NCBI GenBank assembly: GCA_002238765.1
Contig: MPMZ01000015.1
Span: forward strand, 1 to 53,861
DNA: 53,861 nucleotides
Source of the DNA: Nitrospira sp. bin75
GTDB taxonomy: Bacteria > Nitrospirota > Nitrospiria > Nitrospirales > UBA8639
Reading direction: 5' to 3'
This document shows, in pieces, positions 6,405 to 50,854 of the stretch (positions are counted from its first letter, which is position 1; every line of letters begins with the position of its first letter). The translations under genes and the position numbers were made by a program. A model generated the notes under the pieces. The model saw nothing but the letters and a program-made list of their open reading frames with translations, ran no database searches and was not told the DNA's origin.

Positions 6405-10865
<4,461 letters not shown>

Positions 10866-10895
10866 GTCCGGATCCGGCTCCGTACTTATTCCGCC

Positions 10896-12662
10896 ATGGC
10901 CGGGCGCATCCCTTCCGAATTTATCCAGCAATTGCTGGCACGGGCGGATCTGGCCGACCTGATTGGACGCTATGTCCAGATTAAGAAGGCCGGGGCGGAG
11001 TTCAAGGCCTGTTGCCCGTTCCACAACGAGAAAACCCCCTCGTTCACGATCAGCCCGAGCAAGGGTTTTTATCATTGTTTCGGTTGCGGCGCACACGGCA
11101 CCGCGATTTCATTCCTGATGGAGTACGGCCGGTACTCGTTTCCCGATGCGGTCGAGGAACTGGCCAAGCAGACCGGGATGGAGGTTCCGCGAACCGGCGG
11201 GAGTGACGCGCCGCGCCAGGAACTTGATCCGCTGTACGATTGCACGGAAGCGGCGTGCCAGTACTACCAGCAGGCGTTGACCCGGTCCAAGCCGGCACAA
11301 GCGTATGCCCGCGAGCGCGGCCTTTCGAAAGAGATTTGCGAAGAGTATCGGATCGGCTTTGCGCCGCCAGGTTTCGAGAACATCGGTTCGAATCTGCCGA
11401 GCCGGTTTAACCAGGAATTGTTGCTGAAGGTGGGACTGTTGTCGAAAAAGGAAGGGCGGGTCTACGACAAGTTCCGCAATCGCCTGATGTTCCCGATCCG
11501 GGATTCGCGCGGGCGGGTGCTCGGGTTCGGCGGACGGGTCATCGACGATAAGGACAAACCCAAGTACATGAACTCGCCGGAGACCCCGCTGTTCCACAAG
11601 GGGCGTGTCTTGTACGGAGTGCACGAACTGCAGCAGCGCCGCGGAAAGATCAACTACCTGATCCTGACGGAGGGGTATATGGATGTGGTCAGCCTGACGC
11701 AGGCCGGAGTGCGGAACGCCCTTGCCACCCTGGGCACGGCCACGACCGAGGATCATGTCCGGCAGATGGGGCGCTTCTGCCGCACGTTCGTGTTTTGCTT
11801 CGATGGGGATCCGGCAGGTCGGGCTGCCGGCTGGCGCGCGCTTGAGAGCCTGCTGCCGGTTCTGCGCGAGGGCGATGAGGTTCGCTTTGCGCACCTGCCG
11901 GAGGGGGAAGATCCGGACAGCTACATCCGTGCCCATGGCGTGCCCGGCTGGAAAGAATTCATCCGAGGGGCCACGCCGCTGGAGGAATATTTCTTCACGC
12001 ACCTGGAGCAGGGCCTGAACTTGGACCTGGCGTCCGGGAAGTCGGCGTTGGTCGCGAAGGCGAAACCGTTGTGTGAGAAAGTCGGCGCCCCGGTCTTCCG
12101 CGACCTGATGATCCGGAAGCTGTGCGACACGACCGGATTAAGAGAAGACCAGTTGCGCCTGGAACCGGCGACTGCAGGCGAACCGGATGCCCAACGGCCC
12201 AAGCCGACCCCGCCCGGACGACCGTCGGCGATACGGGTGATGATCCGCCTGTTGCTGGAGTATCCCGGGCTGGCCCGCCTGGCACCGCCGCCGGAAGACC
12301 TGAAAGCTATTTCGGTCCCGGGATTTGACCTGTTCGCCAAGATTGTGGAACTGGTACAAAAGAATCCCGATATTAAGGCGGACGGAATCCTGGAATCATT
12401 TCGGGGCCAGGATGCGGAGAAGCACCTGAATAGCCTGATGCGCTGGACGCCGGTAGAGCTGTCCGGAGTGAAAGAGGAGGGGGATGTTCATGTCGTCTTC
12501 GAGCAGGGCGTGCGCCGGTTCAGGCTCCAGTGGGTCAGGCAGCGGATTGGCTTCCTGGAGACCAAGCAGGCCGAAGAAGAGGTTCTCGGCCCGGTGGAAC
12601 AGGAGGAACTGGCGAACCTGCGCAAGGAACGCGCCGAACTTGCACGGGCTCCAGGCGGATAG
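10896..12662 (+). CDS. dnaG: DNA primase
   Basis: Makes RNA primers at the replication fork. The 588 residues show the N-terminal CHC2 zinc finger (C40, H43, C61, C64), the RNA polymerase core with the Toprim motif EGYMD near residue 257 and DGD in FCFDGDPAG, and a C-terminal helical region that would contact DnaB helicase. The length is normal. It begins 30 bases after gltB on the same strand, not in the usual rpsU-dnaG-rpoD arrangement, so it may be co-transcribed with gltB. It converges tail to tail with the barrel protein gene, leaving only three bases between the stops. Confidence 0.95.
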   Translation: MAGRIPSEFIQQLLARADLADLIGRYVQIKKAGAEFKACCPFHNEKTPSFTISPSKGFYHCFGCGAHGTAISFLMEYGRYSFPDAVEELAKQTGMEVPRTGGSDAPRQELDPLYDCTEAACQYYQQALTRSKPAQAYARERGLSKEICEEYRIGFAPPGFENIGSNLPSRFNQELLLKVGLLSKKEGRVYDKFRNRLMFPIRDSRGRVLGFGGRVIDDKDKPKYMNSPETPLFHKGRVLYGVHELQQRRGKINYLILTEGYMDVVSLTQAGVRNALATLGTATTEDHVRQMGRFCRTFVFCFDGDPAGRAAGWRALESLLPVLREGDEVRFAHLPEGEDPDSYIRAHGVPGWKEFIRGATPLEEYFFTHLEQGLNLDLASGKSALVAKAKPLCEKVGAPVFRDLMIRKLCDTTGLREDQLRLEPATAGEPDAQRPKPTPPGRPSAIRVMIRLLLEYPGLARLAPPPEDLKAISVPGFDLFAKIVELVQKNPDIKADGILESFRGQDAEKHLNSLMRWTPVELSGVKEEGDVHVVFEQGVRRFRLQWVRQRIGFLETKQAEEEVLGPVEQEELANLRKERAELARAPGG

Positions 12663-13796: not shown

Positions 13797-15707
13797 ATGG
13801 AGGGAGTCCTCGAAATCAGAGACGGGTGCAATACTCCGGAGCAACTGCTCCGGAGCCTCGCGTTCGCCCGCTACCTGAAAATCTACAAGGAAGAGTTCCT
13901 CGCGGACCTTCTGCATCGCGATCATAATCTCGACGAAGCTCAGCACAAGGCAGACTTGATCCGCAGCATCACGCTGCGGGATATCAGCACCATCCTGGAC
14001 TCCAATCACTTCGATCCCGAAGAGTTGGAGCATGCGCGCGCGGTTGTCAAGTTCCTGGACGGCGGCTTCCATCATTTCCGCAACGCGAGTTACTCGCGCC
14101 TGGTCCGCCTGCAGAACGAAGTGGTCAGTTCCGGTACGGAGAGTCAGAGCACGATCAAGGACAAGGTCACGGAGAAAGCCGCCGAGTTGAACGACTTGAT
14201 CCTGGAGACGCGCCGCCGGCTGCTGTCGCAGGTCGGGCTGGGCTACGGAGTGCGCCGTACGCCGGGAATGGACGCCTCGCCGAACGTGACGGCCGGGGAG
14301 ATTTCCGGACACTACTGCAACATTCCTGCGCCCTATAGCATCCTGTGCCATGTGCCCCTGACCATGGCGGCGGACATCCGCACGGGAGTGGATTACCGCA
14401 CGCCAGCCAACCGGCGTGCTTATCCGTTCTTTCAACTGGACCACAACCCGCTGCACATCGAGGACTTCGACCCGGAGGTCTGGGTGTCGGTCCCGCTACG
14501 GGTCGGGCGCTGGCTGATCATCGCCTACATCCACAAGTCGCGCGGCTGCATCGAGATGGAGCCGGGCCTGCTGAACCTGTTCCCTTTCGCCGACGTCGAG
14601 CAGACCTTCCCGGCGACGCGCCCCGACGGCCTGTTCTTCTTCGGAGATCCGAACGGGAAGTTCGGCGAGGATCTTGGCTATTACTGGGACGAGGAGAACC
14701 AGCTGCTGATCGGCTTGGTGCCGGAACACGACGAATACAAGTATTTCGGCTACTGCAAGAAGCCCATCCTGACCCTGCACAACGTGCTCGCGATCCGCGC
14801 CGGCGATGTTCCGCTGCACTGCGGCTGCACCCGCTATATCGTGGGCTTCGAGGGCGACGAGCCGTACATTTCGGAGATGCTGATCAAGGCGGACGACATG
14901 GGCCGGGCCGTGCTGGAACGTGCCAACGGCTCGGCGTTCCGCCGGCCGATCTTCTACGGCACCGAAATCGGCGCCTTCGCTTGCCTGGACGGTTTCAGCG
15001 AGCAGGCGAAGCTGGCCATGGAGGGCCGGGAGGTCGGCTACAACAACCACATGGGCTCGAACGCGCGGCAGGTCGTGCCGGTGGCCGAGGAGTCCGAAGT
15101 GGCGCTGGGCAGTAACCTGGACGTGCTGCTGTACCTGAACAACTTCGACATCAAGGAAGAAGGCGAGTCCTGTATCGACACGGAGATTCCGGTTCCCGAG
15201 GCCATCGAACATTTCCGCAAGGGTGAACGGGTCGCCGCGGGCAGCACCCAGACGCATCGGGGCAAGAAAGAGGCCAGCTACTGGGCCAATCCGTTCCCGA
15301 CGCTGATGAGCAACGACGGCGATGTGCTGCACCCCGACCTCTACGAACAGTTCAGCGAAACCGAAGCTTCTTTCATGAAGGATATCGAAGCACTGGTGGA
15401 GCGCAAGGAAATGTATCTCGGCGTTGCGTACAGCCAGTTGATGGCGGGGGTGTACGAGAAAGTCGAAGACGAAGACGTCACGCGTTGCGGCTTCAACGAC
15501 CGCGAGGAGATCGAACAGGTTGCGCCGGAGCGCCTGGCGCACGAACTGATCCAGATGGTCAAACAGATTGCAGTGAAGAAACGTGAGCGGCTGAACGGCG
15601 ATGCCCGGGAAGTCGATGTCACGGTGGCGCTGGTCGGCGACAGCCGCACCGGCAAGTCGGAGACCGGAGAGAAACTGGAAGGCGTCCTTGGATTGACGCT
15701 GGTTTGA
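13797..15707 (+). CDS. Unassigned 636-residue protein ending in a HprK/PEPCK-like P-loop
   Basis: I do not recognise the family. The protein starts with a helical region (residues ~1-150), then a mixed domain with IPAPYSILCHVPLTMAADI and a segment LTLHNVLAIRAGDVPLHCGC. The last ~25 residues hold a clear Walker A, VALVGDSRTGKSETGEKL, similar in form to the GxSGxGKSE loop of HPr kinase and PEP carboxykinase-like proteins. The chain ends about ten residues after this loop, too early for a folded P-loop domain, and the AT-rich island starts just downstream. I infer that the 3' part may have been lost at the island junction; a complete protein with an unusual tail is the alternative. The ATG at 13797 follows a GGGGTTG stretch. 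Confidence 0.55.
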   Translation: MEGVLEIRDGCNTPEQLLRSLAFARYLKIYKEEFLADLLHRDHNLDEAQHKADLIRSITLRDISTILDSNHFDPEELEHARAVVKFLDGGFHHFRNASYSRLVRLQNEVVSSGTESQSTIKDKVTEKAAELNDLILETRRRLLSQVGLGYGVRRTPGMDASPNVTAGEISGHYCNIPAPYSILCHVPLTMAADIRTGVDYRTPANRRAYPFFQLDHNPLHIEDFDPEVWVSVPLRVGRWLIIAYIHKSRGCIEMEPGLLNLFPFADVEQTFPATRPDGLFFFGDPNGKFGEDLGYYWDEENQLLIGLVPEHDEYKYFGYCKKPILTLHNVLAIRAGDVPLHCGCTRYIVGFEGDEPYISEMLIKADDMGRAVLERANGSAFRRPIFYGTEIGAFACLDGFSEQAKLAMEGREVGYNNHMGSNARQVVPVAEESEVALGSNLDVLLYLNNFDIKEEGESCIDTEIPVPEAIEHFRKGERVAAGSTQTHRGKKEASYWANPFPTLMSNDGDVLHPDLYEQFSETEASFMKDIEALVERKEMYLGVAYSQLMAGVYEKVEDEDVTRCGFNDREEIEQVAPERLAHELIQMVKQIAVKKRERLNGDAREVDVTVALVGDSRTGKSETGEKLEGVLGLTLV

Positions 15708-15751
15708 TTCCCCCCTAAACCTGTTTTGCTTGGTTGGGCGGTGCCAGAGGC

Positions 15752-15766
15752 CGTAAAATATTTACG
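15752..15766. repeat. Short palindrome downstream of the island operon
   Basis: CGTAAA (15752-15757) and TTTACG (15761-15766) are exact inverted repeats around ATA, about 60 bases past the end of the operon. They could be a weak transcription stop or a regulator site; no T-run follows in either direction. Confidence 0.35.
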
Positions 15767-15826
15767 TATGGTCTGGCGTCTTATTTAGTAATCAAAAGTC
15801 CAAAGTCCGTAAAGTAATATCTTTCT

Positions 15827-17308
15827 CTATTTGGCATTGACTAAAATTGACTCGATTATTTTTTTCGCTGCTTGTGGCGATGACGAAATCTCGGAGATAA
15901 TTTTGAAGATATTTTTGTATGTTGATATCTCAGATGAATCAATTCCGCGAAAAGCAGATTGTTTCTGCCTCACTTTGATGTGAGAAAATTTGTCTACCAG
16001 CAAATTTAATCTCTTAATGTCTTCCGCACACATTTTCTGACATCTCTCTGTTTTCCTAAAATCACAAATTTCAACCATCCTTTCTTTCGCTAACTGTCTA
16101 GCAACTTTCGTGGATAAATATCCAGACGACAGGAGATCATAAAACTCTTCTAAATCCTTCAAAAAGGCTTGTGTACGTCGAAAGTGATTACGTACCCCTG
16201 ACGCAATCCTGCATTGTCTTTCTAGCTTTCGGCATACTGCTCCAAGATGATTTTCAAGATTCCGAACATGTGGGCTTGGCTCAAAATAATCACGTTTACC
16301 ATTTGGCACTATTCGAGTATCTAATATGTGGATTTCTGCTACACACCAACGATTAAAGCGACTTTCAGAAAAGAGGTGATCAAATATAGTCGCATCGCCT
16401 ATCTGAATGTTACCTATCCGTGCCCGCAGACATTTTTCTTTAGACTTTTTAGAAAGTGCGCCTAGATATGAAGAATGGGCAACCCAACCAATTGCAGCGA
16501 AACCATTATTATCCAGTGTAGGGACCATAATTTTCTCGAAACTTACATATCTATCTTGCTGGTCATTAGGAAGACGCACTACATTGTCATATGGCCGGGT
16601 AATTTTTTCTTTTTCTCCGTTCAGATAAATGCTAAGTGTCAGAGGTTTAGGGTACCCTTTAAACAGGTGTGAAAGATCATCTAGATATGGAAAGGTTTCT
16701 TTAAATTGAACAGGGCAAATTTCTCCAATGTAGTCTCGAACAATATCTCGATTCAGTATGGACGAGGCCGCATATCTCGATATCCCCTCTACCTGAACCT
16801 CAAAAAAGTTTTCAGGGTAGTTGTCTCCTTTCAATTGATCAACGGTCACACACTCAAGAATCGCTTTCCTTATCGATAAATTTTTGTCAATGCTTTTTCG
16901 CAATTGCTCGCCATTCCATACTACTCTCATAATGGTAGATTCAGCTCCACAACGTGTGAGGAACGTTACTGAACTGCCAAATGCTAAACCTGATAGGCGC
17001 CCAACTCCTCTAAATCCTCTGTTGCATTTGAGGTCCTTTTGGCTCATCGCGAGAGGAATTAACTCTCGCTTAGCTTGTGAGGGCGATAGCCCTGGGCCAT
17101 TGTCTCTAATTTTTAGACATAACTCGCTTGGGTCAATTTCGATTTCAATTGACCCACTCTCTGGCTTATTTGATGTAGCAATAGCATCAGCTGCATTTTG
17201 GATATATTCGCGATAAATCACCAAGGGGTCTGTGTACATACCCCGAGTAACTAGGCCAAGTATATCCCCACCAACGAGCCCTCTGATGTCGTCGTTGCTG
17301 AAGGTCAT
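15827..17308 (-). CDS. GHKL (Hsp90-like) ATPase of the island operon
   Basis: A 493-residue protein with an N-terminal Bergerat-fold ATPase: N-box EYIQNAADA (residues 34-42, E34 and N38), G1 box DNGPG (69-73) and G2 box GFRGVGR (98-104), as in Hsp90, MutL and MORC proteins. The second half, with FEPSPHVRNLENHL, is not assignable and lacks the MutL and HtpG C-terminal features. It is the last gene of the operon, 18 bases after the radical SAM gene. Dimeric GHKL ATPases often act as ATP-driven clamps or switches; a role in gating the helicase or nuclease is my inference. Confidence 0.8.
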   Translation of the reverse strand: MTFSNDDIRGLVGGDILGLVTRGMYTDPLVIYREYIQNAADAIATSNKPESGSIEIEIDPSELCLKIRDNGPGLSPSQAKRELIPLAMSQKDLKCNRGFRGVGRLSGLAFGSSVTFLTRCGAESTIMRVVWNGEQLRKSIDKNLSIRKAILECVTVDQLKGDNYPENFFEVQVEGISRYAASSILNRDIVRDYIGEICPVQFKETFPYLDDLSHLFKGYPKPLTLSIYLNGEKEKITRPYDNVVRLPNDQQDRYVSFEKIMVPTLDNNGFAAIGWVAHSSYLGALSKKSKEKCLRARIGNIQIGDATIFDHLFSESRFNRWCVAEIHILDTRIVPNGKRDYFEPSPHVRNLENHLGAVCRKLERQCRIASGVRNHFRRTQAFLKDLEEFYDLLSSGYLSTKVARQLAKERMVEICDFRKTERCQKMCAEDIKRLNLLVDKFSHIKVRQKQSAFRGIDSSEISTYKNIFKIISEISSSPQAAKKIIESILVNAK

Positions 17309-17326
17309 CGGATGCCATCCGTTGTT

Positions 17327-19000
17327 TTATGCTGACTTGGCGACGGAAGCTATGCCTTCTGGTTCTTGGCACTCTCCGGCGTCTCCTTCTTGATCATATA
17401 ATCCGGAATCTTCTACGATTTCTTCCTCGTTAGGTAAGATTGGGTCTGTGTTAAGAGAAGAGAATATAGGAAGAATTTTAGAATCAGGGACTTTATCTAC
17501 TTTTGTCTTGGTGTCCAAAGTATGAAACGAAATTACTTCTCGTACTAAAGCATCAACACCACGTGTGTTTGCGATTCTGTTGTAATACTCTCTACGTGTT
17601 TTTTCGCCACCAATAGGTGTGGCCAAGTGTTCCAATAATTCTGCTTCTTGCCCTTTGGTCATTTTTCTCCGAAGTGTTTCATATTCATCACGAATACTGC
17701 TACTTGGACCCACTCCATAGTCCCTGTCGTTTTCATAGTATGTGCGGTGGAAGATGAAGCCATGAGGGTAGCTCAATAACCTCATAAATGCGTCTTTGTC
17801 TTCACCATATGCACGGTTGAAAAATGCTGCGCTTCCACTTACCACACCATGAGTGGCCTGTAACATGATTTGAAAAGTTCGAAGATAGTAACGATTCCAG
17901 TGTTCACCTACATGACTTCTATCTTTAAGAGTCACTGGCTGATATCTCATGGGGAACGACCATATTCGAACTCCAATTTCTTCATTCAACGCAATATTTA
18001 ATTTCATTCTGGTGTATAGGTCTACAGGCGTGTCCTTGAAGTTGTACAGCATGTAATTCGAAAGCGATGTAATACCATTATCCGCTGCCATACGCACGGA
18101 TGTTTCGTATACTTTGCGGACGCCAATGTGATCAAAAGCAATGCGCAAGGGGCTAATACAAATAGTAGACATTTCTTTCAGATACATTGGTGATTTAGCT
18201 AGTATCCGGGCATCCACTCCCTGATTGAAGTCGACACGACGCTTGGTTTGTTTTCCGTCGCGCTCAAGAGTGGCACCAGGTTTAAATCCGAGATCACGAA
18301 TTTCCGCTATAACCTCTTTGTAGCGCGCGGAGGCAGTTACGTTGTTGTCCATCAAGATTAGGTCTTTTTTAACACCATGATTTTCAGCGATTCCCGAGAC
18401 TAGATTAGATAATGGAGGCATTTCCCTTTGGGCTCCTTCCAGTTTTGGCACGCCACAAAAATGACACTTTCGAATACATCCCCTAGACGCGTACCCAAAA
18501 TATGCGTCATGGACAGGGTAAATATAGTCGGTGTGCTCAAGAATTGTGTAATCAGGAACACGTGTTTCAATAGATTCTCCCACGAGGTCGTCTGCACCAA
18601 GATAGCCATCTTCCGACGACAATCGCAATGCGGATGCAGGCGGTCCATCGAGCAGGCCAGCGATGAATCTCACGCCGGTCCATCTAGTTTCTCGAACAAA
18701 CTCATCATGCATTAGAGACGCAGCAATGCCACCTACAAAAACACGTTCCGGTTGATTTCCTGCTACTTGGATAGCAAAATCAATGGCACGGGCAATTCTT
18801 TTCCACTCAAAACTAAAAAGCGTTGTAACGTAAACTCGGTCCCATGCCTGAAGCAAAATCGATGCTGGCTTTCCAAAATCTTTATAGAATTTTACAGAAT
18901 CTCCCCGGTCTCTATGGTAAGACGCAAGTTTCATCAATCCTAGGGGCGGATATTTATTTCGATAACCTGGTTCTATCAGGAGTATGTTGCTTTTAATCAT
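17327..19000 (-). CDS. Radical SAM protein with N-terminal B12-binding-like domain
   Basis: A 557-residue protein. The N-terminus (NILLIEPGYRNKYPPLG) has the look of the Rossmann-like domain that precedes radical SAM barrels in cobalamin-type enzymes, but I see no DxHxxG cobalamin-ligand motif. The radical SAM cluster motif CX3CX2C is at C175, C179 and C182 (RGCIRKCHFCG). The C-terminal ~250 residues are unassigned, with an acidic tail. It should use a 4Fe-4S cluster to cleave S-adenosylmethionine and generate a radical. The substrate is unknown; association with helicase, nuclease and ParB-like genes suggests DNA or a nucleotide, which is inference. It overlaps the preceding ParB-like gene by eight bases. 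Confidence 0.85.
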   Translation of the reverse strand: MIKSNILLIEPGYRNKYPPLGLMKLASYHRDRGDSVKFYKDFGKPASILLQAWDRVYVTTLFSFEWKRIARAIDFAIQVAGNQPERVFVGGIAASLMHDEFVRETRWTGVRFIAGLLDGPPASALRLSSEDGYLGADDLVGESIETRVPDYTILEHTDYIYPVHDAYFGYASRGCIRKCHFCGVPKLEGAQREMPPLSNLVSGIAENHGVKKDLILMDNNVTASARYKEVIAEIRDLGFKPGATLERDGKQTKRRVDFNQGVDARILAKSPMYLKEMSTICISPLRIAFDHIGVRKVYETSVRMAADNGITSLSNYMLYNFKDTPVDLYTRMKLNIALNEEIGVRIWSFPMRYQPVTLKDRSHVGEHWNRYYLRTFQIMLQATHGVVSGSAAFFNRAYGEDKDAFMRLLSYPHGFIFHRTYYENDRDYGVGPSSSIRDEYETLRRKMTKGQEAELLEHLATPIGGEKTRREYYNRIANTRGVDALVREVISFHTLDTKTKVDKVPDSKILPIFSSLNTDPILPNEEEIVEDSGLYDQEGDAGECQEPEGIASVAKSA

Positions 19001-20027
19001 TTCCGCTATCGGTCTTTTCCGCTTTTTCGACTATTTTTGTGATTCTGTCGACCTTTCGTTTTAGTTGGCGGACAGCTTGTTTAAAAGCATTAAAGTCATT
19101 TTTGCCTAGATTGAGCACCTCGGGACTTGAAACGTCATCAAGCAGTTTAGAAGCTTGTAGTACTTTTTCTTTTTCTTGACTGATTTTGGCTCGTTGGTAT
19201 GCATCTTCTAGGCTAATCTCCCCTTTAACATATTGCTTCAACACTTTTTTCTTATTTAAAACAACTGGGAGTTGTTTTCTCATTACTTGAGCGGTAAACT
19301 CGTTTTCGTTTTCATCTTTACCTAACTGTTTTATTTTCTCCAAAATAAAAGACTCTAATTGGGCGTCTTCTTGCAGCCCATTCGCAATTGGTTTTGCTCT
19401 AGCCAACACATCGTAATAGCTAAAATGGCTTCGCTCACTGTCGCTGTTGTCCCTCATCATGCGAATTACATTTACGCGAGTTTTAACCGTCGCTGGGGAT
19501 TCCCCGAACAAGTTTGCAATTTTATCCACTGTCCACCCGGCATCGTGTCGCACGTAGGCAAAGTTGGCCTTTTCGTAGGCTGACCACTTTGTTTTTCCTT
19601 TGACATGAATTTGATTTAAGAAAGCGGCCTGTTGGTCTTCGGATAAACGTGCCACTATCTGACATGGTATCAATTCAAAGTCTCCTTCTATATCTTCCCC
19701 TTTTGATTGCCGTGTATTCAGCATTCGGTACACTGCTAGCCTAGAATTCCCTTCTATAACCTCCATCGTGTCGTGGCGAACCAATATTGGTTCTATGAGA
19801 CCTTGGTGCCGTTTAATTTCGGGGTAGAGATTCTTGACGCTCGCCTCTTTCGCAAGCTTGTCAAATATTCGTTGTTGTTGGTCTGTGTCAGGAAGATTAT
19901 CGAATCCTGGTATCGAGTGTGTACAGGCGTATACTCTTGGGTTGTCCTTTAGGAATTTAAGATCATATATGTCCAAATAGTCGGAACTGACCGCTATCGT
20001 TTCTCCCAAAATTTTCATGTCCATCAT
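18993..20027 (-). CDS. ParB/Spo0J-like protein, second of the operon
   Basis: A 344-residue protein with a ParB N-terminal-type domain: VIEGNSRLAVYRML (residues ~90-103) stands where ParB has its GERR-type nucleotide-binding motif. A helix-turn-helix-like segment DKIANLFGESPATVKTRV follows, then a Lys/Glu-rich coiled tail. Just after the core it has HVKGKTKWSAYEKA, a motif also present in the other ParB-like protein of the operon (HLVGPRDWPAYEKA), so the two are likely paralogues. It lies 17 bases after the helicase stop. It is not accompanied by ParA, so partitioning is unlikely; DNA-site recognition or NTP-dependent loading is inferred. Confidence 0.8.
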   Translation of the reverse strand: MMDMKILGETIAVSSDYLDIYDLKFLKDNPRVYACTHSIPGFDNLPDTDQQQRIFDKLAKEASVKNLYPEIKRHQGLIEPILVRHDTMEVIEGNSRLAVYRMLNTRQSKGEDIEGDFELIPCQIVARLSEDQQAAFLNQIHVKGKTKWSAYEKANFAYVRHDAGWTVDKIANLFGESPATVKTRVNVIRMMRDNSDSERSHFSYYDVLARAKPIANGLQEDAQLESFILEKIKQLGKDENENEFTAQVMRKQLPVVLNKKKVLKQYVKGEISLEDAYQRAKISQEKEKVLQASKLLDDVSSPEVLNLGKNDFNAFKQAVRQLKRKVDRITKIVEKAEKTDSGND

Positions 20028-20044
20028 AATGCTATTTCGTCGTT

Positions 20045-21505
20045 TCAGTTTCTAGGAGAAAGTATCTGCGCTAATGCTCCAGACAGGTCATAGTCATAGT
20101 CTGAAGAAAATTTTTTGCAGGATATGTCGCCTTGTGTCATTTGTGCTGCTTGAAACTTCGCGTTTAGAAGTATATCGACCCACTCGTCTATTGTTGCCTT
20201 AGCGATTAAGTTGTGCACAAAACATTCCTCAGTCTGCGATATTCGGTGGATGCGGTCTTGGGCTTGTAGGTAGTCATCAAGGCTAAACCCACGGTCGAAA
20301 AATATAGCATGATTGGCTACTGTTAAAGTCAACCCTTCTTTAGCAGCACCAGGTGTGGCCACCAAAATTCGGCAATTCATATCTACTTTGAATTTCCTGA
20401 TAGATTCGTTCCTGTCCGCGATGGACATTGAGCCATGCACTTTTTGTGGCCCATGTTGCAACAATTTTTCTGCTAGCCACTCAACGTTATCAATAAATCC
20501 AGTCCATATGATAATTTTGTTTGACCGCAAGTCGATGTCTGTAATTAATTTAATTAGCGCGTGATATTTTCCAGGCAATTCGTCGTATGCTTCATCTACA
20601 AGGATTGGATTTGAAGCGCATTGAACTAAACGCAACAAGCGTTTCAAAACATCTTCCGCGTCGTCAATTGTATGATTGCCCTCGCGCTGCACTTCATAGG
20701 CCATTTGTTTCCTGTATGCGGTATAAATGGCCAATTGGCGTGGCGTCATATCTACATAGTGAGTGAGAATAGTTTTGTTTGGTAGCTCTAGACCTGATGT
20801 ACGTTTTGTTTTACGGATTGAGAAAAGCCTAATACTCTCCATTACATTAGATAATTGCTTTCCATACTTTGATGCTGATGCAGGGTTAGAAGGCAAGTCA
20901 TAAGAATTTTTAAAATCGGTGAATTCATGTCCTAGTGCCTCCCCAAAGTCAAGGAACTTAATTTGAGACCATATGTCGTAGGGGCGATTAGCTACGGGCG
21001 TTCCGGTCATGATTATGCGGCGCGTAAATTTTTCTGCCAAGGTATGCAAACTACGTGCAAGTTGTGACTCTGGGTTTTTGATTTTTTGGCTTTCGTCCAA
21101 GACTGCTCCAGTGCGACAAGAATCGAGAAACTTATGCATAAGGTCTAGATTCGTTGAGACAACTTCGTAGTTCATAATGTAAATTAGAACGGGAGAGTTT
21201 AAGGCAATGCTATTTGCATGGCGATTTTCTGACAAGACTCTAGGGGTGACGTGTGAGTGAATTGCTAATTCTTCCACCCAATTCTGGACTAGTATTTTTT
21301 TGGTGATAACAAAAACGGTATCGACAATATCCTTTTGTAGCCAAAGCAGCATTAAATCAACTGCGATTTTAGTTTTCCCCAGTCCTTGCTCATGGAAAAT
21401 GGCAGCGTAGGGCATGGACTGTATTGCCCTGACAGCATCTAACTGATACGGATATGCTTCGTGCTTCGCACTCAGCGCGGGTGGCTTTCTTAGTACAAGT
21501 CCCAT
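20045..21505 (-). CDS. SNF2-type SF2 helicase/translocase
   Basis: A 486-residue protein with both RecA-like lobes: Q-motif-like YPYQLDAV, Walker A HEQGLGKTKIA (GLGKT at 41-45), motif II DESQ (137-140, a DEAH variant typical of SNF2 proteins), motif III MTGTPVANRPYDIW, then RILVATPGAAKEGLTL and motif VI QAQDRIHRISQ. These fit compact SNF2 translocases, which move on double-stranded DNA. It has no nuclease domain of its own; the nuclease gene just upstream overlaps it by 16 bases, and the two may work as a unit. Confidence 0.9.
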   Translation of the reverse strand: MGLVLRKPPALSAKHEAYPYQLDAVRAIQSMPYAAIFHEQGLGKTKIAVDLMLLWLQKDIVDTVFVITKKILVQNWVEELAIHSHVTPRVLSENRHANSIALNSPVLIYIMNYEVVSTNLDLMHKFLDSCRTGAVLDESQKIKNPESQLARSLHTLAEKFTRRIIMTGTPVANRPYDIWSQIKFLDFGEALGHEFTDFKNSYDLPSNPASASKYGKQLSNVMESIRLFSIRKTKRTSGLELPNKTILTHYVDMTPRQLAIYTAYRKQMAYEVQREGNHTIDDAEDVLKRLLRLVQCASNPILVDEAYDELPGKYHALIKLITDIDLRSNKIIIWTGFIDNVEWLAEKLLQHGPQKVHGSMSIADRNESIRKFKVDMNCRILVATPGAAKEGLTLTVANHAIFFDRGFSLDDYLQAQDRIHRISQTEECFVHNLIAKATIDEWVDILLNAKFQAAQMTQGDISCKKFSSDYDYDLSGALAQILSPRN

Positions 21506-21927
21506 GTTACTTGGTGAGAATCTAAGAGCCAGAGATCAAGGGTGTCGAAAACCATAATATTTGTCTTGAACACTCGTGTTTTTTTACATATAAACCGAAG
21601 AACAGTCTTAGCATGATCGGCATTTTGTCCGGTTGCCGCTAAGACCAGCACACCGTTCTCTCTTTTTTCAAGATAGTTAATAAATGACACAATTTGCTCA
21701 TGGGTGTGTTGGTAGTCAAGATCGTCCGTTTTGGCCTCAGCGATGATAACTGACCCATTGGATTCTCTGCGGACATATATATCCGGGCGAAATCCGTTGA
21801 TTAGCGGTGGCACTTCATCACCAGGAGCATCCTGAACGTCGGTCAGGACACGTATTTGCGGGTCTAGGCTTTTGAGCTTTTCAGCAACCTGCAAAACCAA
21901 GTTTCTATGTAATTCACTCTGAGACAT
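21490..21927 (-). CDS. PD-(D/E)XK-type nuclease
   Basis: A 145-residue protein with the core of a restriction-endonuclease-like fold: N-terminal helix with a Glu, FRPDIYV (P48, D49), then IIAEAKT (E64, K66), and the helix THEQIVSFINYL. D49, E64 and K66 fit the PD...ExK metal site, so it should cleave DNA. It overlaps the first ParB-like gene by 14 bases and the helicase by 16. Its small size, with no recognition domain, suggests that partners supply target choice. A Holliday-junction or archaeal-type resolvase-like role is possible but less likely. Confidence 0.7.
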   Translation of the reverse strand: MSQSELHRNLVLQVAEKLKSLDPQIRVLTDVQDAPGDEVPPLINGFRPDIYVRRESNGSVIIAEAKTDDLDYQHTHEQIVSFINYLEKRENGVLVLAATGQNADHAKTVLRFICKKTRVFKTNIMVFDTLDLWLLDSHQVTWDLY

Positions 21928-22945
21928 CTTTTAGCAAGCCATCTAAGCTTTCAGACAAGCCTTCAAGAGCCCTAATTTGCTCTATAGTCTCGTTATTCTC
22001 TTTGGCTTTGAGTGCGCGCAACTCAGAATATGGTAGGTCAGTAATACGACGATTAAGTGCTACTGCCAAGTGATACATTGATGCGGTCTTTAAAGTGAGT
22101 TTCGTGGAGCCCGGCTCAGTCTGCTGCCGTTTTTCGACCACCCGGATTGCATCCTCTATAGAACGAATCTCTCCAGCGAGGAAGACCTCTTTGGCTTCTT
22201 CGTCTTGGAGCACCTTCGGCAAGTTTCGTACATCCTCCAACCGATATATCTTTCCATCCCGAATCCATTCCCCGAAGTCTTTCAGGTCGCAACCAGCATC
22301 AAATATGGCATCTTTTATTTTTGGCTTTTGCAGTTCAACGAACCCACTAAACCTGTCAATACGAAAACTATCATCCTCAACAACGTCACGATAATATTCA
22401 TTCATATCATGATAGGCATCAATTTGCCGTTCTATATCCCGTCTATTGCCGCCGCAAAGAGCGATCATTTCCTCGTAATCCATGAATTCTTGATTTCGCA
22501 AATGGTGGAGATATCTTGCTTTCTCGTAAGCGGGCCAATCTCTAGGTCCTACCAAATGTGCAGTCACGCGAATTGTTTCAATATCTCGCCGACTTGCGGG
22601 GTCAAGCACTACCGATTTAATTTGAGTCCAATCGCCACTCACGTCTCGTTGTAGAAATTCCTTGTATATGGCCAGCCTAGTATTTCCATCAATGCACACG
22701 TATCCGCCATCCTTATTTACCGTGACAGTGATGGGGACGACTATGCCACTACTAGCACGGATCGAATCTCTCAGTCGGTCGTAGGAAGGCACACCAGACG
22801 ACCCACCATTAGCCGAATGAAGAGCAAAGGAGATACGCTGGGCATTTATTTGGTCGCCCCATTTCTCTAAAGCCTTCTTAATTCTTGGATTATCGCGATC
22901 ATAGGATATATCTTCGACATTGAGCATGACATAGTTTTTGGACAT
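21914..22945 (-). CDS. ParB/Spo0J-like protein, first of the operon
   Basis: A 343-residue protein opening with VEDISYDRDNPRIKKALEKW and a ParB-type core ending in CIDGNTRLAIYKEF (DGNTR at 86-90). Next comes the shared motif HLVGPRDWPAYEKA and a region resembling the central helical domain of ParB. The C-terminal ~60 residues are helical and charged. It starts the operon, 33 bases downstream of a TATAAT box. Like its paralogue it has G-N-x-R in place of the canonical ParB motif; whether it binds CTP cannot be told from sequence. Confidence 0.8.
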   Translation of the reverse strand: MSKNYVMLNVEDISYDRDNPRIKKALEKWGDQINAQRISFALHSANGGSSGVPSYDRLRDSIRASSGIVVPITVTVNKDGGYVCIDGNTRLAIYKEFLQRDVSGDWTQIKSVVLDPASRRDIETIRVTAHLVGPRDWPAYEKARYLHHLRNQEFMDYEEMIALCGGNRRDIERQIDAYHDMNEYYRDVVEDDSFRIDRFSGFVELQKPKIKDAIFDAGCDLKDFGEWIRDGKIYRLEDVRNLPKVLQDEEAKEVFLAGEIRSIEDAIRVVEKRQQTEPGSTKLTLKTASMYHLAVALNRRITDLPYSELRALKAKENNETIEQIRALEGLSESLDGLLKDVSE

Positions 22946-22977
22946 CGCATCACCATAAGAGTTTGTAGACGTTCTGA

Positions 22978-22983
22978 ATTATA
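22978..22983 (-). promoter_or_regulatory. -10 box (TATAAT) of the island operon
   Basis: ATTATA on the plus strand is TATAAT on the minus strand, 33 bases upstream of the first ATG of the operon (22945). The only alternative upstream gene is valS, which is transcribed in the same direction from far away in GC-rich DNA, so the island likely has its own promoter here. The -35 region is poor. Confidence 0.5.
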
Positions 22984-23058
22984 AATCGGTGTCATGGTAT
23001 CAGCATAAAGATGAGCAATTAGAGGCTTGCTGCAGGATCGTATTTTTACTTTTGGTTG

Positions 23059-38139: not shown

Positions 38140-38212
38140 TCCCATTGTTTATCGAAGCCAGCCAGTGTAAATCATAAAAGTTTATACCAGTAATTTCCAT
38201 TAGGAACAAGGC

Positions 38213-39562
38213 ATGTATGACGTGTTGATCATTGGTGCAGGAACCGCAGGTATTGCAGCGGCCAAACAATTGGAAAAATTGAATGCCGAATATTTGCTGA
38301 TAGAAGAGGGAGATGGAGGTACGACGTGTGCAAAGACGGGATGTATGCCATCTAAAGGGCTAATTGAAATAGCAAAGAAGGTTAATAATCTTCAGTCTTT
38401 AACTAAAGAGAATCTTATCCAACAAAATCAATTCAAAATTGATACTGCTTCTGTGCTGAAAAAAGTACGCACACTTAGAGATCATTTTGTCGAGAGAGCC
38501 ATTAAAGGGAGTGAAAAATTTCCTCGGATCAAAGGGACTGCAAAATTTATTAATACTAATACGATTGAAGTCAATGGGGAAAAAATATCGGCCAACAATA
38601 TAATTATTGCAAACGGTTCAAGGCCAAGAATACCGGATGTATTTGAAGAGGTGAAATCCAAAATATTAACTACTGACAATATTTTTGAACAAGAAAAGCT
38701 ACCCGATAGCATAGCTGTTGTCGGACTGGGTGTTATCGGGGTAGAGCTTGCTCAAGCTCTTGCAAGATTGGGAGTAAAAGTACAAGTATATGAAGAATAT
38801 AGAACAATAGCAGGAATACAAGATGAAAAAGTTTTTCATCATGCACTTTCTCTTCAACAGCAGTACTACCCGATTCACTTTAATACCAAGATTTCAAAAG
38901 TAACAGAGCAAGCAGGGAAGTTCTTGATTGAGTGGAAAAATGGTCGATTAGAAGTTGACCAAATATTGTTGTGCGCTGGAAGAGAATCCAATATTGATCA
39001 ATTGAACTTGGGAAAACTAGGCCTAGATACTACGGACACAGCAAACACGTTATATGACCCCTGCACGTTGCAGATAAATGATTTCCCAATTTATGTGGCT
39101 GGTGATGTTAGTTCCCAAAAAATGGTGGTGCATGAAGCCGCAGAAGAAGCAAGAGTTGCGGTACACAATGCGATGCATACTAAAAAGAAAAAACTTGCAA
39201 AGCCTGCTTTAAATATAGTTTTTACTGACCCACCCATAGCAAGAGTAGGCCAGTCATTAAATGAACTCGACCAGGACAAGTGTGTTATTGGTGAATTCGA
39301 TTTTTCTCTGCAAGGGCGTGCGACTTTAAAAGGGGAAAATCATGGCGTTGTACGGGTTTATGTGAATTCAAGAAACGATCATATTCTCGGTGCAGAAATG
39401 ATAGCCCCAGGTGCGGAAAATTTTGCACATTTGTTAATGATGGCCATTCAAAATGAAATTCCATTACACAAGCTATTACAGCTGCCTATCTATCATCCGG
39501 TTTTGGAAGAAGGATTACGCCAAGCATTAGTTAATGCAAAAAGCAAATCAGCAGTTGCATAA
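38213..39562 (+). CDS. FAD-dependent pyridine nucleotide-disulfide oxidoreductase
   Basis: A 449-residue class I flavoprotein of the dihydrolipoamide dehydrogenase type. FAD motif GAGTAG (8-13), redox-active disulfide C39/C44 in TTCAKTGCMPSKG, NAD(P) motif VVGLGVIGVELAQ near residue 174, second FAD motif PIYVAGDV, and the C-terminal dimerisation domain with HPVLEE, which keeps the His-Glu catalytic pair. Keeping that pair argues against 2-ketopropyl-CoM carboxylase, which lacks it. Given its neighbours, reduction of a CoM or mixed disulfide is a reasonable inference. It is the first gene of the cluster and has its own putative promoter. Confidence 0.85.
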   Translation: MYDVLIIGAGTAGIAAAKQLEKLNAEYLLIEEGDGGTTCAKTGCMPSKGLIEIAKKVNNLQSLTKENLIQQNQFKIDTASVLKKVRTLRDHFVERAIKGSEKFPRIKGTAKFINTNTIEVNGEKISANNIIIANGSRPRIPDVFEEVKSKILTTDNIFEQEKLPDSIAVVGLGVIGVELAQALARLGVKVQVYEEYRTIAGIQDEKVFHHALSLQQQYYPIHFNTKISKVTEQAGKFLIEWKNGRLEVDQILLCAGRESNIDQLNLGKLGLDTTDTANTLYDPCTLQINDFPIYVAGDVSSQKMVVHEAAEEARVAVHNAMHTKKKKLAKPALNIVFTDPPIARVGQSLNELDQDKCVIGEFDFSLQGRATLKGENHGVVRVYVNSRNDHILGAEMIAPGAENFAHLLMMAIQNEIPLHKLLQLPIYHPVLEEGLRQALVNAKSKSAVA

Positions 39563-39680
39563 GCTTTTCTGCACACCCTTTTTCGTCCGGTCCAGCAAAC
39601 GAATTCTAAGCCTGGCTTCCGATATGCAGCGAACCTGACCGGGACTATCTTTTGAAATTTAAAGGCATAAAATACAGCCT

Positions 39681-39701
39681 AGTACTTAAGTAGTACTCAA
39701 G
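39681..39701 (+). repeat. Direct repeat upstream of the MetE-type gene (possible operator)
   Basis: AGTACTTAAG (39681-39690) and AGTACTCAAG (39692-39701) recur with an 11-base spacing, one helical turn, 33 bases before the ATG at 39734. A TAAAAT (39668-39673) just upstream may be a -10 box. The placement over a probable transcription start suggests a regulator site; this is inference. Confidence 0.4.
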
Positions 39702-39733
39702 AATCCAGAGATAGACCCAAGAGAGGTATCATT

Positions 39734-40846
39734 ATGAAAATTAGAGATCAAGAGGTACTTATACCTACCAGTATTGTAGGTAATTATCCCAACCCACGTT
39801 GGTGGGATACGTTGTGGGCGACCAATTTTTCGGGAGACCAGGCACCACCGGATGCGAAAGAGCGAGAAGCACTGGAAGACGCAATAGCCACTATGGCGCA
39901 CGATCAAGAAATGGCAGGGCTGGATATTATTTCGGATGGCCGGGTACAAGGCGATAATTATGTTGATCAAATCGTGTACTACTACCTTAAGCGTCTCGGC
40001 TACAGCATGCATGGGGAATACCTGGCTACACCACTTTATAGTGACTTACACTCCGCGACCTGCCATCAAGAAATCAAACGCTACGGCCCCATCATGATTC
40101 AACAGGCCAGGGCATTGAAACGGGCTACTGACAAGCCGATTAAAGTGCAATACACGGGGGTTCAAGCTTTGGCCCAATGTACCAATGATTATTATTACAA
40201 GTCCAGTTATGATCGAGCGATGGCAATTGCCGTAGCACTGAACGAAGAACTCCTTGAATTAGACGAGATGGGCGTAGACTTCATTCAATTGGACGAGTTT
40301 ACATGGCCTTACCTTTTTGAAGATTGGGCGATAGAGGCCTACAACCGATGTGTGGAAGGTGTCAAAAACGCCAAGATTGTCACACATGTCTGCTGGGGAA
40401 ACTACAAAGGGACTTACGGGTATTACATGGAAGAAGGAGCAGAGGATTTCGATATCACCAAGCGAGCAGGTGAAAATCCAGCGAATCGAGCGGAATCCAT
40501 CGTACCGAAATGTTATGAGGCGAACCTGGATGTCATTAACATAGAAAACTGTGGCAGATGTGAGGGCGAACTGGATGTTCTGAAAACACATCCGCTGCCG
40601 GATAACTTGTACTTTTGGGCAGGGGTCATCGACATCAAGAGCACGATTGTTGAAACTGCTGACCAGGTAGCTGATCGTATCCGGGGCCTGCTCAAGTATG
40701 TTCCTGCCGACCGCCTTGGGGTTACAACCGATTGTGGTCTTATTCACTTTTGGCGCTACATCGCCTATGAAAAAATGCGTGCTCTTGTTGAAGGAACAAA
40801 AATCGTGCGTGAAGAATTGCAAAAGGAATCAAAGAAAGCCGCATGA
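39734..40846 (+). CDS. MetE-family zinc thiol transferase, epoxyalkane:CoM transferase-like
   Basis: A 370-residue protein equal to the C-terminal barrel of cobalamin-independent methionine synthase. Zinc ligands by comparison with MetE are H218 and C220 (THVCW), E271 (NIENCG) and C334 (TTDCGL). It lacks the MetE N-terminal half. Stand-alone proteins of this size include epoxyalkane:CoM transferase, which adds the CoM thiol to epoxides, and archaeal methyltransferases. The adjacent CoM-biosynthesis genes favour a CoM-dependent enzyme, but the substrate is not shown by the sequence. An AGAGG ribosome site precedes the ATG. Confidence 0.7.
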   Translation: MKIRDQEVLIPTSIVGNYPNPRWWDTLWATNFSGDQAPPDAKEREALEDAIATMAHDQEMAGLDIISDGRVQGDNYVDQIVYYYLKRLGYSMHGEYLATPLYSDLHSATCHQEIKRYGPIMIQQARALKRATDKPIKVQYTGVQALAQCTNDYYYKSSYDRAMAIAVALNEELLELDEMGVDFIQLDEFTWPYLFEDWAIEAYNRCVEGVKNAKIVTHVCWGNYKGTYGYYMEEGAEDFDITKRAGENPANRAESIVPKCYEANLDVINIENCGRCEGELDVLKTHPLPDNLYFWAGVIDIKSTIVETADQVADRIRGLLKYVPADRLGVTTDCGLIHFWRYIAYEKMRALVEGTKIVREELQKESKKAA

Positions 40847-40886
40847 TGCACTGATCGAAAATAAAGTTAATGGAGATTCTGTATCC

Positions 40887-41096
40887 ATGTCAGTTCTAAC
40901 CTTATGGTGTCCGGATTGTGAACGGGAGTTCAAAGGCATGGTTATGACTGGTGCGAAAGTTCCTGATGTGTGGGTTTGCGCGGTCTGTAAAAATGATCGC
41001 GCAAATCCCATACACGAAGATCATCATTCACATCCCTGGGCGAAAGATCCATGCGATCATGATGCTCATAGGACCTGCCCTTGCTGCGTAGTGTAA
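40887..41096 (+). CDS. Small Cys/His-rich metal-binding protein
   Basis: A 69-residue protein with two CXXC pairs (C8/C11 and C31/C34), forming a likely zinc ribbon, and a His/Asp/Cys-rich tail: HEDHHSH, then CDHDAH and CPCC at the C-terminus. The ATG at 40887 follows a GGAG ribosome site. I do not recognise the family. It sits between the zinc-dependent transferase and the CoA transferase genes on the same strand, so a metal-delivery or thiol-handling role is possible but unproven. Confidence 0.65.
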   Translation: MSVLTLWCPDCEREFKGMVMTGAKVPDVWVCAVCKNDRANPIHEDHHSHPWAKDPCDHDAHRTCPCCVV

Positions 41097-41100
41097 TTGT

Positions 41101-42045
41101 GTGTTGACTCTCCACTCGACCGCAGAGAACAAATTTACCAGCATTGAAGCACTAGCTTCACAAGTTGAATCCGGAGATTGTGTAGCAGTCGGAGGTGGCT
41201 TGTCATCACGTGAGCCGATGGCTCTGATCCGTTCAATCATCCGCAATCGTGTTAACGGTTTGACAGTGGTCGGTTCTGCACACGGAATTGACATCGATTT
41301 GCTGTGCGGTGCAAATGCGGTTTCTGCGTCGCAAGAAAGTTATGTAGGGTTTGAACAAGATTTTGGCATGGCGCAAAACTATCGACGAGGATGTGAAAGT
41401 GGTGAAATAGAAATTCAGGACAATTGCTGCTATACGCTTGTTCAACAACTTCGTGCCTCGATACAAGGCTTACCATTTATGCCCATTCAATCAGTAAGAG
41501 GTACCGATTTTGAAAAAAATCATCCAAGCTATAAAACGATACAGAGTCCTTATTCGGGAGAGGACATATTAGTTGTTCCACCTCTGACACCGGATGTGGC
41601 AATTATTCATGCCCAATATGCCGACTTGCATGGCAATTTGAGGATTGAAGGTCCTCCAGTCGTTGACTTGCTGTTTGCGCAGGCATCAAGAACAGTACTG
41701 GCAACAGTGGAAAAGATCGTAACAAATGAAGAATTGAAGCGCCTCGGTGGTGCAAATCTTCCGTACTTTTATGTGTCCTACATTGCGGAAGCACCCATGG
41801 GCGCTCATCCGACCGCTTGCTATCCATTTTATGCCTATGATCGTGAACATACCGAGTTATACATGTCTGCTGCGAAAGAAGGTTCAACAGCGTTCAAAAA
41901 AAAATATTTGAAAGATTTCGTGTATGAATGTGAAAGTCATGAAGAATACCTGCATCGCATTGGCGGAGAAGATACACGTGTAAGACTATCTAGCTGGAAG
42001 GAGTCAGCTGATGCCTGGATGGAGTTATACAAGGGAAGTACATAA
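41101..42045 (+). CDS. Family I CoA transferase-like, alpha subunit
   Basis: A 314-residue protein with the alpha-subunit fold of glutaconate CoA transferase-type enzymes: SGDCVAVGGGLSSREPMALI near the start, LTVVGSAHGIDIDLL, then PPLTPDVAIIHAQYADLHGNLRIEGP, and a C-terminal segment seen in this subfamily. The start is GTG 41101, directly after the small Cys-rich gene; the next gene is two bases downstream. With the beta subunit it would act on an acyl-CoA made in the pathway, either transferring CoA or, as in IpdAB, hydrolysing a ring. Confidence 0.85.
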   Translation: MLTLHSTAENKFTSIEALASQVESGDCVAVGGGLSSREPMALIRSIIRNRVNGLTVVGSAHGIDIDLLCGANAVSASQESYVGFEQDFGMAQNYRRGCESGEIEIQDNCCYTLVQQLRASIQGLPFMPIQSVRGTDFEKNHPSYKTIQSPYSGEDILVVPPLTPDVAIIHAQYADLHGNLRIEGPPVVDLLFAQASRTVLATVEKIVTNEELKRLGGANLPYFYVSYIAEAPMGAHPTACYPFYAYDREHTELYMSAAKEGSTAFKKKYLKDFVYECESHEEYLHRIGGEDTRVRLSSWKESADAWMELYKGST

Positions 42046-42047
42046 AT

Positions 42048-42902
42048 ATGGGCAAGAATTGCACGCTGGGCGAGCTACTTATCGATCAACTGGCGCGAAC
42101 TGTTGAAGATGACACATTAGTGTTCCATGGATTTGGATCACCATTAGTTCAGATTGCATTGCATGTTGCCAAAAGGGTATACACCCCTAATTTGGTGCTG
42201 GTAGCTGGTGCTACCTATGGAGTCAATCCAGATCCTCCTTTCATATCTCCCACGACTAACGACTGGGTACATGACCGAAACTCTGAATGCCACCTAAGCA
42301 TTGGTGAGTTATTCGATTTGTCTGCAAGTGGGCGCTTGGGGAGAATGTTTTTATCAGGCCTGCAAATCGATCGTTGGGGCAATACCAATGTCACTCAGCT
42401 GGGCCGTAAAACCTTAAAGCTGAAACTGCCGGGGGGTGGCGGCGCTTGTAACCTGTCCTGTAATGCAAAAAATATAACATTGTGGACTGCCGCGCATCGT
42501 TCAGAGCCAGTAAAAGGAAAACGCCGCTATCGGATCGTCTCGCAGTGTGACTATGTCACCGGTTTTGGTCATAAGAACGCTGATGGGATTACTCGCAGGC
42601 AACTTGGGTACCGGGGCAACGGTCCACAGTGTCTCGTTACGGATTTAGGCGTTTTTGATTTCGACCAGGACGGGCATTTGCAATTGAATGCTCTCTATCC
42701 GCACACCACTGTAGACGATGTTCTGGAAAATACTGAATTTGAACCAAGAATGAAGAAAGAGGTTAAAACAGTTTCGCTTCCTTCTTTAGAAGTGCTTTCG
42801 ATCATCCGAAAACTTGATCCACTTCGTATTCATGAAAAGGAATTATTACCCGGGGACCGCTCATTGACATTGGAAGAGCCTAATAATGCAGCAATCTGTT
42901 GA
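42048..42902 (+). CDS. Family I CoA transferase-like, beta subunit
   Basis: A 284-residue protein with LGELLIDQLARTVEDDTLVFHGFGSPLVQIAL, LVLVAGATYGVNPDPP, and SGLQIDRWGNTNVTQLG, then a GGGGACNLSC segment that fits the beta subunit. The position where family I transferases have the catalytic Glu (an ENG-type motif) reads VAGATYG here, with no obvious Glu, as in IpdB-type hydrolases. This assignment of the missing residue is by eye. The end of the gene adjoins a GC-rich insertion sequence. Confidence 0.82.
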   Translation: MGKNCTLGELLIDQLARTVEDDTLVFHGFGSPLVQIALHVAKRVYTPNLVLVAGATYGVNPDPPFISPTTNDWVHDRNSECHLSIGELFDLSASGRLGRMFLSGLQIDRWGNTNVTQLGRKTLKLKLPGGGGACNLSCNAKNITLWTAAHRSEPVKGKRRYRIVSQCDYVTGFGHKNADGITRRQLGYRGNGPQCLVTDLGVFDFDQDGHLQLNALYPHTTVDDVLENTEFEPRMKKEVKTVSLPSLEVLSIIRKLDPLRIHEKELLPGDRSLTLEEPNNAAIC

Positions 42903-42933
42903 ACAATCCCAAACGAGCATGAAACAAGTGGGT

Positions 42934-43711
42934 CTTCACGGAAGTGTGTGGAATCCCTGAGGCTCCCGAGTCTGAATTTGCTACAGTAACTTCTCATGTA
43001 CGAATTCCGCTCATCCCGCTATCGTCTGTACCCGAACCGGTCCCAGGCGGAACAGTTCCGGCAGTTGTGCGGCGCCTCGCGCTACGTCTACAACACGCTG
43101 CTCGGCGAACAGATTCAGGGCTACGAGCGCTACCGGGCCGGCGACGGGGAGAAGCCCGACGCCTCGGCCTACGGCCTGGGCCGGCAGTTCATCCGGTTGC
43201 GCCACCGGGACGGGCACGACTGGCTTGAGCCTCTGTCCTGCCAGGTGGTGCGGGCCTCGGGGGCGTTCCGCCTGGGCGCGGCGTTTGGGCATTTCTTCCG
43301 GCGGGTGAAGGAAGCCGAAGCCGAGCCGGGCTTTCCGCGCTTCAAGGCCAAGGGCCTCAGCCGGGAGTCGTTCATCATTCCGGAGGCGGTGCGGCTGGAG
43401 AGGAAGCGCCTGCGGGTGCCGAAGGTGGGCTGGGTGCGGCTGAACCGCAAGGCGGAGCGCTTTGCGTGCCGCGCCTGCGGGCATCGGGACCATGCGGACG
43501 GCAATGCCGCGCGAAACATCCTGGGCTTGGGATTGAACAAGCTCTTGGCCGGAGGCGCTCCGGTGACGGGACGGGGAGGGGACAACGAAACGGGGGGGCT
43601 GCTGTGTGAATGGCGGCATCTAGTGGAGACCGCCCATGATCCGTCAAGACATTTGCCCTGGAATCTTCCGAGGCTTGATCCCGGATGATCCACACAAAAG
43701 TCCGGAGCGCC
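42934..43711 (+). mobile_element. IS200/IS605-type element with internally deleted tnpB
   Basis: A GC-rich block in AT-rich surroundings with a tnpB-like gene and no tnpA. Similar 12-base strings flank it: AAACAAGTGGGT at 42922-42933 and AAACAAGTAGGT at 43712-43723, one mismatch. IS200/IS605 elements do not normally make target duplications, so these may be chance or a trace of the insertion. The boundaries are inferred from composition and these strings. A CCGGA...TCCGG hairpin lies near the right end (43681-43705). Confidence 0.6.
42996..43688 (+). pseudogene. TnpB with the catalytic core deleted
   Basis: A 230-residue reading frame. It keeps the TnpB N-terminus (YEFRSSRYRLYPNRSQAEQFRQL, then EPGFPRFKAKG) and the C-terminal end (FACRACGHRDHADGNAARNIL, with the second zinc-knuckle pair and the last RuvC Asp). 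The middle, holding the first two RuvC catalytic residues and the first CxxC, is missing: GWVRLNRK runs directly into AERFACRACG. A full TnpB is near 400 residues. The deletion kept the frame. The protein cannot be an active RNA-guided nuclease, though the 3' region that normally yields the omega-RNA is still present. Confidence 0.8.
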
Positions 43712-49349: not shown

Positions 49350-49364
49350 ATATAGGATCAACAA

Positions 49365-50810: not shown

Positions 50811-50854
50811 GAGTCAGTGATTGAGATTTTATCGGCTATACATGGGTGCATCAC

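Follow-up and report, generated by a model that had tools for sequence, protein, structure and literature searches.

A six-gene operon joining a radical SAM-GHKL ATPase core to an exchangeable nuclease module is a probable bacterial defence system

A six-gene operon on contig MPMZ01000015.1 of Nitrospira sp. bin75 (GCA_002238765.1; its positions 1-53,861 are here called the window) is likely, from its genomic context, to be a defence system of some kind, and one that has probably gone undescribed so far. The predicted radical SAM enzyme and GHKL ATPase form a constant core, and the block of two ParB-type proteins, a nuclease and an SNF2 translocase is one of several exchangeable modules found beside it. 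The best explanation is a mobile anti-invader system, directed against phages or plasmids and working like modification-restriction, for which the chances are about even; the argument that it works by marking DNA, made by analogy, is likewise evenly balanced. The initial annotation had proposed the six genes as a candidate undescribed system for defence or DNA modification. This interpretation has been partly supported, as the system is real, conserved and apparently horizontally spread, but the six genes do not constitute one fixed system.

The six minus-strand open reading frames were confirmed at exactly the limits first given for the operon (15827-22945 of the window), and the reported packing, with overlaps of 8-16 bases and gaps of 17-18 bases, agrees with the measured values of 14, 16 and 8 bp for the overlaps and of 17 and 18 bp for the gaps (Table 1). 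The AT-rich island with sharp edges was also borne out, with a GC content of 0.34-0.52 (about 0.42) in the operon against about 0.63 outside and edges near 15.7 and 23.1 kb. The promoter-like box that had been assigned to the operon did not hold up, with such boxes occurring in the region at chance level (18 against 14.8 +/- 4.0 in shuffles) and none scoring upstream of the first gene in the same shuffle-controlled scan. No tRNA or Rfam RNA families were found in the window. All six proteins are intact and conserved, and purifying selection was detected in relatives, at whose loci genes were called mechanically, on every operon gene tested (dN/dS mostly 0.02-0.3).

Table 1. Features of the operon and its island in the window.
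Feature	Position	Strand	Description
ParB1, putative ParB/Srx-type protein	22945-21914	minus	343 aa; opens the restriction-like module
Small predicted PD-(D/E)XK nuclease	21927-21490	minus	145 aa; P48 D49 - E64 A65 K66 - Q78
SNF2-family SF2 translocase	21505-20045	minus	486 aa; both helicase lobes
ParB2, predicted ParB/KorB-like protein	20027-18993	minus	344 aa; nucleotide-binding-type domain, HTH and C-terminal helices
Predicted radical SAM enzyme	19000-17327	minus	557 aa; N-terminal B12-binding-like domain; C175, C179, C182 cluster-binding
Predicted Hsp90-like GHKL ATPase	17308-15827	minus	493 aa; C-terminal region fast-evolving
Inserted island with the whole operon	15708-23054		Between a 636-aa gene of unknown family and valS

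The domain identities originally proposed (two ParB-type proteins, PD-(D/E)XK nuclease, SNF2, radical SAM and GHKL) are backed by profiles, motifs and models. The motifs NPR and GNxR are common to ParB1 and ParB2 and invariant in 45 ParB1 sequences; together with weak profile matches to Noc, ParB and SbnI structures (E 0.001-0.06), they suggest that ParB1 is a ParB/Srx-type protein. The AlphaFold2 model of ParB2 (pLDDT 93.5) points to a KorB/ParB fold, with KorB, ParB and Noc as the best Foldseek matches (E 5e-5) and a superposition on KorB with Z 11.4 over 198 residues (rmsd 3.9). Plasmid-derived rows were excluded from the alignments used for structure prediction. The 145-aa protein appears to be a small PD-(D/E)XK nuclease with the full signature and an intact predicted catalytic site, whose residues (Table 1) are invariant in 32 sequences. 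No family in the databases scanned attains its cut-off for this protein, and PDB profile searches gave no meaningful matches either for it or for the DndB-like protein of the sister systems described below. The SNF2 protein matches PF00176 (E 3.6e-29) and PF00271 (E 8.4e-17) in Pfam, and the ParB and nuclease proteins have weak matches to the PADLOC candidate families PDC-M38A and PDC-M15A.

The radical SAM protein has a weak Pfam match but an invariant CxxxCxxC motif, the three cysteines of which (Table 1) are unchanged in 51 sequences. Its AlphaFold2 model (pLDDT 83) finds its best structural matches in AprD4 (Z 16.0), MgmA (15.4) and TsrM (15.4) over 332-362 residues, and also matches OxsB, which argues for a B12-type radical SAM fold with a B12-binding-like N-terminal domain. 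The substrate is a small molecule for AprD4, a protein for MgmA and tryptophan for TsrM, and AprD4 is a diol dehydratase rather than a methylase. Since the best fold matches act on such differing substrates, that of the enzyme cannot be deduced from its fold. Its tail (residues 529-557; window 17327-17416) has a pLDDT below 50, yet a VEDAGL motif within it is nearly invariant, and this tail may possibly serve as a docking peptide for a partner. The GHKL protein matches PF13589 (E 8.1e-9), its family profile matches HtpG structures (E 5e-14) and the ATP-site motifs are invariant among relatives, which suggests an Hsp90-like ATPase. When loci with similar radical SAM proteins are compared, residues at about 401-480 are the fastest-evolving, with a mean identity of 0.44-0.54 against 0.74 at residues 1-380. 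A hypervariable recognition domain was considered for this stretch and set aside, as it looks helical or coiled and may simply be weakly constrained.

A search with the radical SAM protein across 84,980 GTDB species genomes returned 435 relatives, the best 80 of which were analysed and span at least 11 phyla; module frequencies therefore hold for near relatives. In these best 80 of 435, the GHKL gene lies directly behind the radical SAM gene at 75 of the 78 loci with an intact radical SAM gene, most commonly with a 4-bp overlap. Beside this pair, module A (ParB1-nuclease-SNF2-ParB2) was found at 41 of the loci, module B (NurA-HerA with a further GHKL-type protein, GHKL') at seven and module C (PIN and a second GHKL) at 16, with A and B never together and A and C together sometimes. 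The conserved co-occurrence of all six families, which the initial annotation had named as a check, is present for the radical SAM-GHKL pair, but not for the ParB-nuclease-SNF2-ParB block, which can be exchanged. A DndB-family gene (PF14072, E 1.4e-9; DpdB match E 5e-15 at one locus) overlaps the radical SAM gene at many alphaproteobacterial loci, forming 24 adjacent pairs, and effector-like PIN and HEPN domains are present in these sister systems. On plasmid pNL1 of Novosphingobium aromaticivorans DSM 12444, a fusion of a DndB-family protein with a Swt1-like HEPN domain (15183-17492 of the locus) lies beside the radical SAM-GHKL core, and the plasmid has a PIN-GHKL module as well; a Rhizobium plasmid is another carrier. 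In the clade of the window, module A is joined straight to the core, and no match to DndB family PF14072 was found in the window operon with Pfam.

It is proposed that the radical SAM enzyme, aided by the GHKL ATPase, would place a chemical mark on host DNA, for which the B12-type fold would allow C-methylation or a similar alteration. Reading of the mark or regulation would fall to the ParB/KorB-type proteins through binding of DNA and a nucleotide, a part that the DndB/DpdB-like proteins might take in sister systems, while the SNF2 translocase and the PD-(D/E)XK nuclease would locate and cut unmarked DNA. The NurA-HerA or PIN-GHKL modules could perform the same restriction job in other lineages. 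This division between a core that marks and modules that attack is drawn by analogy with Dnd and Dpd, in which relatives of DndB/DpdB occur. For the Dnd and Ssp systems, modular decoupling has been described (PMC10853773), and the present systems resemble them in that the proposed modification part stays constant while restriction parts can be exchanged, as well as in the DndB-family protein of the sister systems. The six window proteins nonetheless have no match to DndC/SspD, the sulfur-transfer enzyme, to its partners DndD, DndE, SspB and SspC, or to DndFGH and SspE (PADLOC, E up to 1), and the operon has the radical SAM and GHKL proteins in place of those of Dnd and Ssp. The likeness to Dpd and related clusters that had been suggested extends to the DpdB-like protein, found solely in the sister systems, and to the SNF2 protein, the match of which to DpdE reflects a common helicase domain only. 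Neither DpdB, a DpdA transglycosylase-like enzyme nor any other Dpd component is encoded among the six genes.

Several points count against marking: the radical SAM enzyme is about as close to enzymes with protein substrates as to those with tRNA or small-molecule substrates, the window clade is without a DndB/DpdB-like gene and, to our knowledge, no radical SAM marker of host DNA is known from any restriction system. The same genes may also provide defence without any DNA mark, with ParB, GHKL and SNF2 sensing invading DNA or its replication, the radical SAM enzyme modifying a protein, a tRNA or a nucleotide as effector or activator, loosely as viperins do, and the nucleases serving as further effectors. 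The genomic evidence for defence fits this alternative equally, the nearest solved folds (AprD4, MgmA, MiaB and TsrM) belong to enzymes of proteins, tRNA and small molecules, and the sister systems contain PIN and HEPN domains of an effector-like kind. However, the radical SAM protein is the most conserved component and is kept while the nucleases change, as would be expected of a constant core and not of an effector, and the PADLOC comparison at E up to 1 gave no family match for it. Defence without marking is regarded as a tentative reading, well under an even chance. For the marking model in its full form, a new class of modification-restriction immunity with host DNA marked by a B12-type radical SAM enzyme together with an Hsp90-like ATPase and with several unrelated, interchangeable nuclease modules that destroy what is unmarked, confidence falls somewhat short of even. 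If true, it would describe a widespread defence family with a core chemistry unlike that of known systems. Bacterial immunity may then use novel chemistry to mark 'self' DNA, and the service of one constant core by several unrelated nuclease modules would bear on the logic of self and non-self discrimination.

The earlier remark that no named system with these six parts was known agrees with the comparisons made. Against PADLOC-DB 2023, the six proteins showed no match to a named system beyond generic SNF2 similarity, and in the NCBIfam scan they missed the cut-offs by far. The operon is also absent from the open-access literature searched (including PMC10853773, PMC12839542, PMC12704722, PMC7159879 and PMC7641849), a scope in which subscription papers and preprints are mostly not covered. 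Family scans excluded Dnd, Ssp, Dpd, Zorya, DISARM and pVip as the identity of the operon. Its SNF2 helicase domain is shared with Zorya (ZorD, E 2.5e-46) and DISARM (DrmD, E 1.6e-16), but here it forms a stand-alone 486-aa protein, the ZorD score is 72.7 against an NCBIfam cut-off of 1500 bits, and the six proteins include no ZorA or ZorB and no DrmA, DrmB, DrmC or methylase. Prokaryotic viperins (pVips) are radical SAM enzymes linked to antiviral defence; the operon enzyme differs from them in its modelled B12-type two-domain fold with a B12-binding-like N-terminal domain. HerA-nuclease systems are comparable in that NurA-HerA is an alternative module beside the same radical SAM-GHKL core, but a radical SAM or Hsp90 partner is unmentioned in the HerA-system papers found.

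Module A was also followed independently of the core. A class-wide search for co-occurrence was too sparse to inform (2 and 4 of 385 genomes), and searches anchored on ParB1, a starting point independent of any radical SAM gene, were therefore carried out on plasmids and viral contigs. ParB1 is matched by seven of 72,556 plasmids, and all seven are within the 17 plasmids with a radical SAM match and among the 12 best of these matches; likewise, all nine viral contigs with ParB1 have a radical SAM relative alongside. Thus, no ParB1 without a radical SAM gene was found in these two sets. On one viral contig (L233, 6219-13886), a distantly related radical SAM gene (8631-9989) overlaps ParB1 by 4 bp in an arrangement with ParB1-nuclease-SNF2-ParB2, and no GHKL gene was recognised at this locus. 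A reverse-transcriptase-looking gene, seen by eye and with no Pfam match, lies upstream. In Marinitoga camini virus 1 (7995-11821 of the locus), a short radical SAM relative adjoins HerA and NurA genes.

These copies on plasmids and viral contigs, together with the ParB/KorB fold and HTH domain that ParB2 shares with ParABS systems, would suit a device for the maintenance, partition or competition of plasmids or other mobile elements, in which the paired ParBs and the nuclease attack rival elements. Such a role is considered unlikely, given that the six genes include no ParA-like ATPase, that the NurA-HerA and PIN versions have no ParB pair and that the copy in the lineage of the window is chromosomal, at a junction where a sister genome has type II restriction-modification genes.

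The operon appears to have spread horizontally across bacteria of many phyla. At least 14 changes of module type fall on the radical SAM tree (four for A against B alone, and 19 for the presence of module A), and the phylum label changes 16 times, where 10 would be the minimum, counts to be read with the knowledge that bins may hold misplaced contigs and that near relatives are over-represented. At three loci (L059, L069 and L070), the radical SAM proteins are 93-95% identical and the module A proteins 23-54% alike, with ParB1 at 24-32% and ParB2 at 23-26%. Within the genus assigned to the window's genome, the gene was found in three of the 13 remaining genomes, in one as a partial copy.

The operon is an insertion of about 7.3 kb at a junction that takes varied cargo, including restriction-modification genes. 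The site is empty in two near relatives (L280, 92-95% identity; L281, 78-87%), in which the 7.35-kb stretch of the island is absent and window position 15707 is joined to 23055/23056 with 50 bp between, so that the gene at 13797-15707 is followed by valS. In a third relative (L283, 8842-12274), a different 3.4-kb insert occupies the same junction and carries an N6/N4 DNA methylase (PF01555, E 3.8e-47), an NgoMIV-family restriction enzyme (PF09015, E 6.8e-94) and an ADP-ribosylglycohydrolase; PADLOC likewise calls the methylase and nuclease type II. About 600 bp lie at the same junction in a fourth (L282). No other observation speaks more strongly for a defence role than this varied cargo with its restriction-modification genes. 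The flanks contribute less: matches to defence families such as PD-T7-1, LmuB and DndH turned up for some flanking genes, but a control set compared with PADLOC also gave helicase-type matches, and matches could not be traced to single flank members, so that the defence-gene enrichment is modest and suggestive. Varied flanks, which the initial annotation had named as a check, were found, with no flanking family common to the loci and at most five of 80 loci sharing one. The 636-aa protein at the edge of the site (13797-15707) is conserved in relatives (53-99% identity) and has no match in Pfam or PADLOC; a PrkA kinase assignment was dropped for want of a Pfam match.

Repair and maturation enzymes also contain NurA-HerA, SNF2, radical SAM and GHKL domains, and the operon might accordingly encode a pathway for housekeeping or for repair, be it of DNA or RNA or through cofactor chemistry, that travels horizontally by chance. 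This is nevertheless very improbable, with an operon so rare and patchy (two of 385 genomes of one class, and an empty site in near relatives) and with a swapping of modules that does not fit such a pathway.

The host in which this insertion took place is not the one given by the assembly. Over 20.8 kb, the window contig shares 99.995% identity with a contig from a gammaproteobacterial metagenome-assembled genome, and it carries a second valS at a GC content of 0.63, while the genes of the bin are Nitrospirota-like and it has its own valS on another contig, at a GC content of about 0.54. The window contig is therefore gammaproteobacterial and was misbinned into a Nitrospirota genome, and the two valS genes together with the contig identity rule out the Nitrospirota bin as the operon host. 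Elsewhere in the window, a second AT-rich stretch (38200-53861; GC 0.38-0.47) holds metabolic-looking genes and is interrupted at about 42996-43688 by what appears by eye to be a GC-rich TnpB-like fragment.
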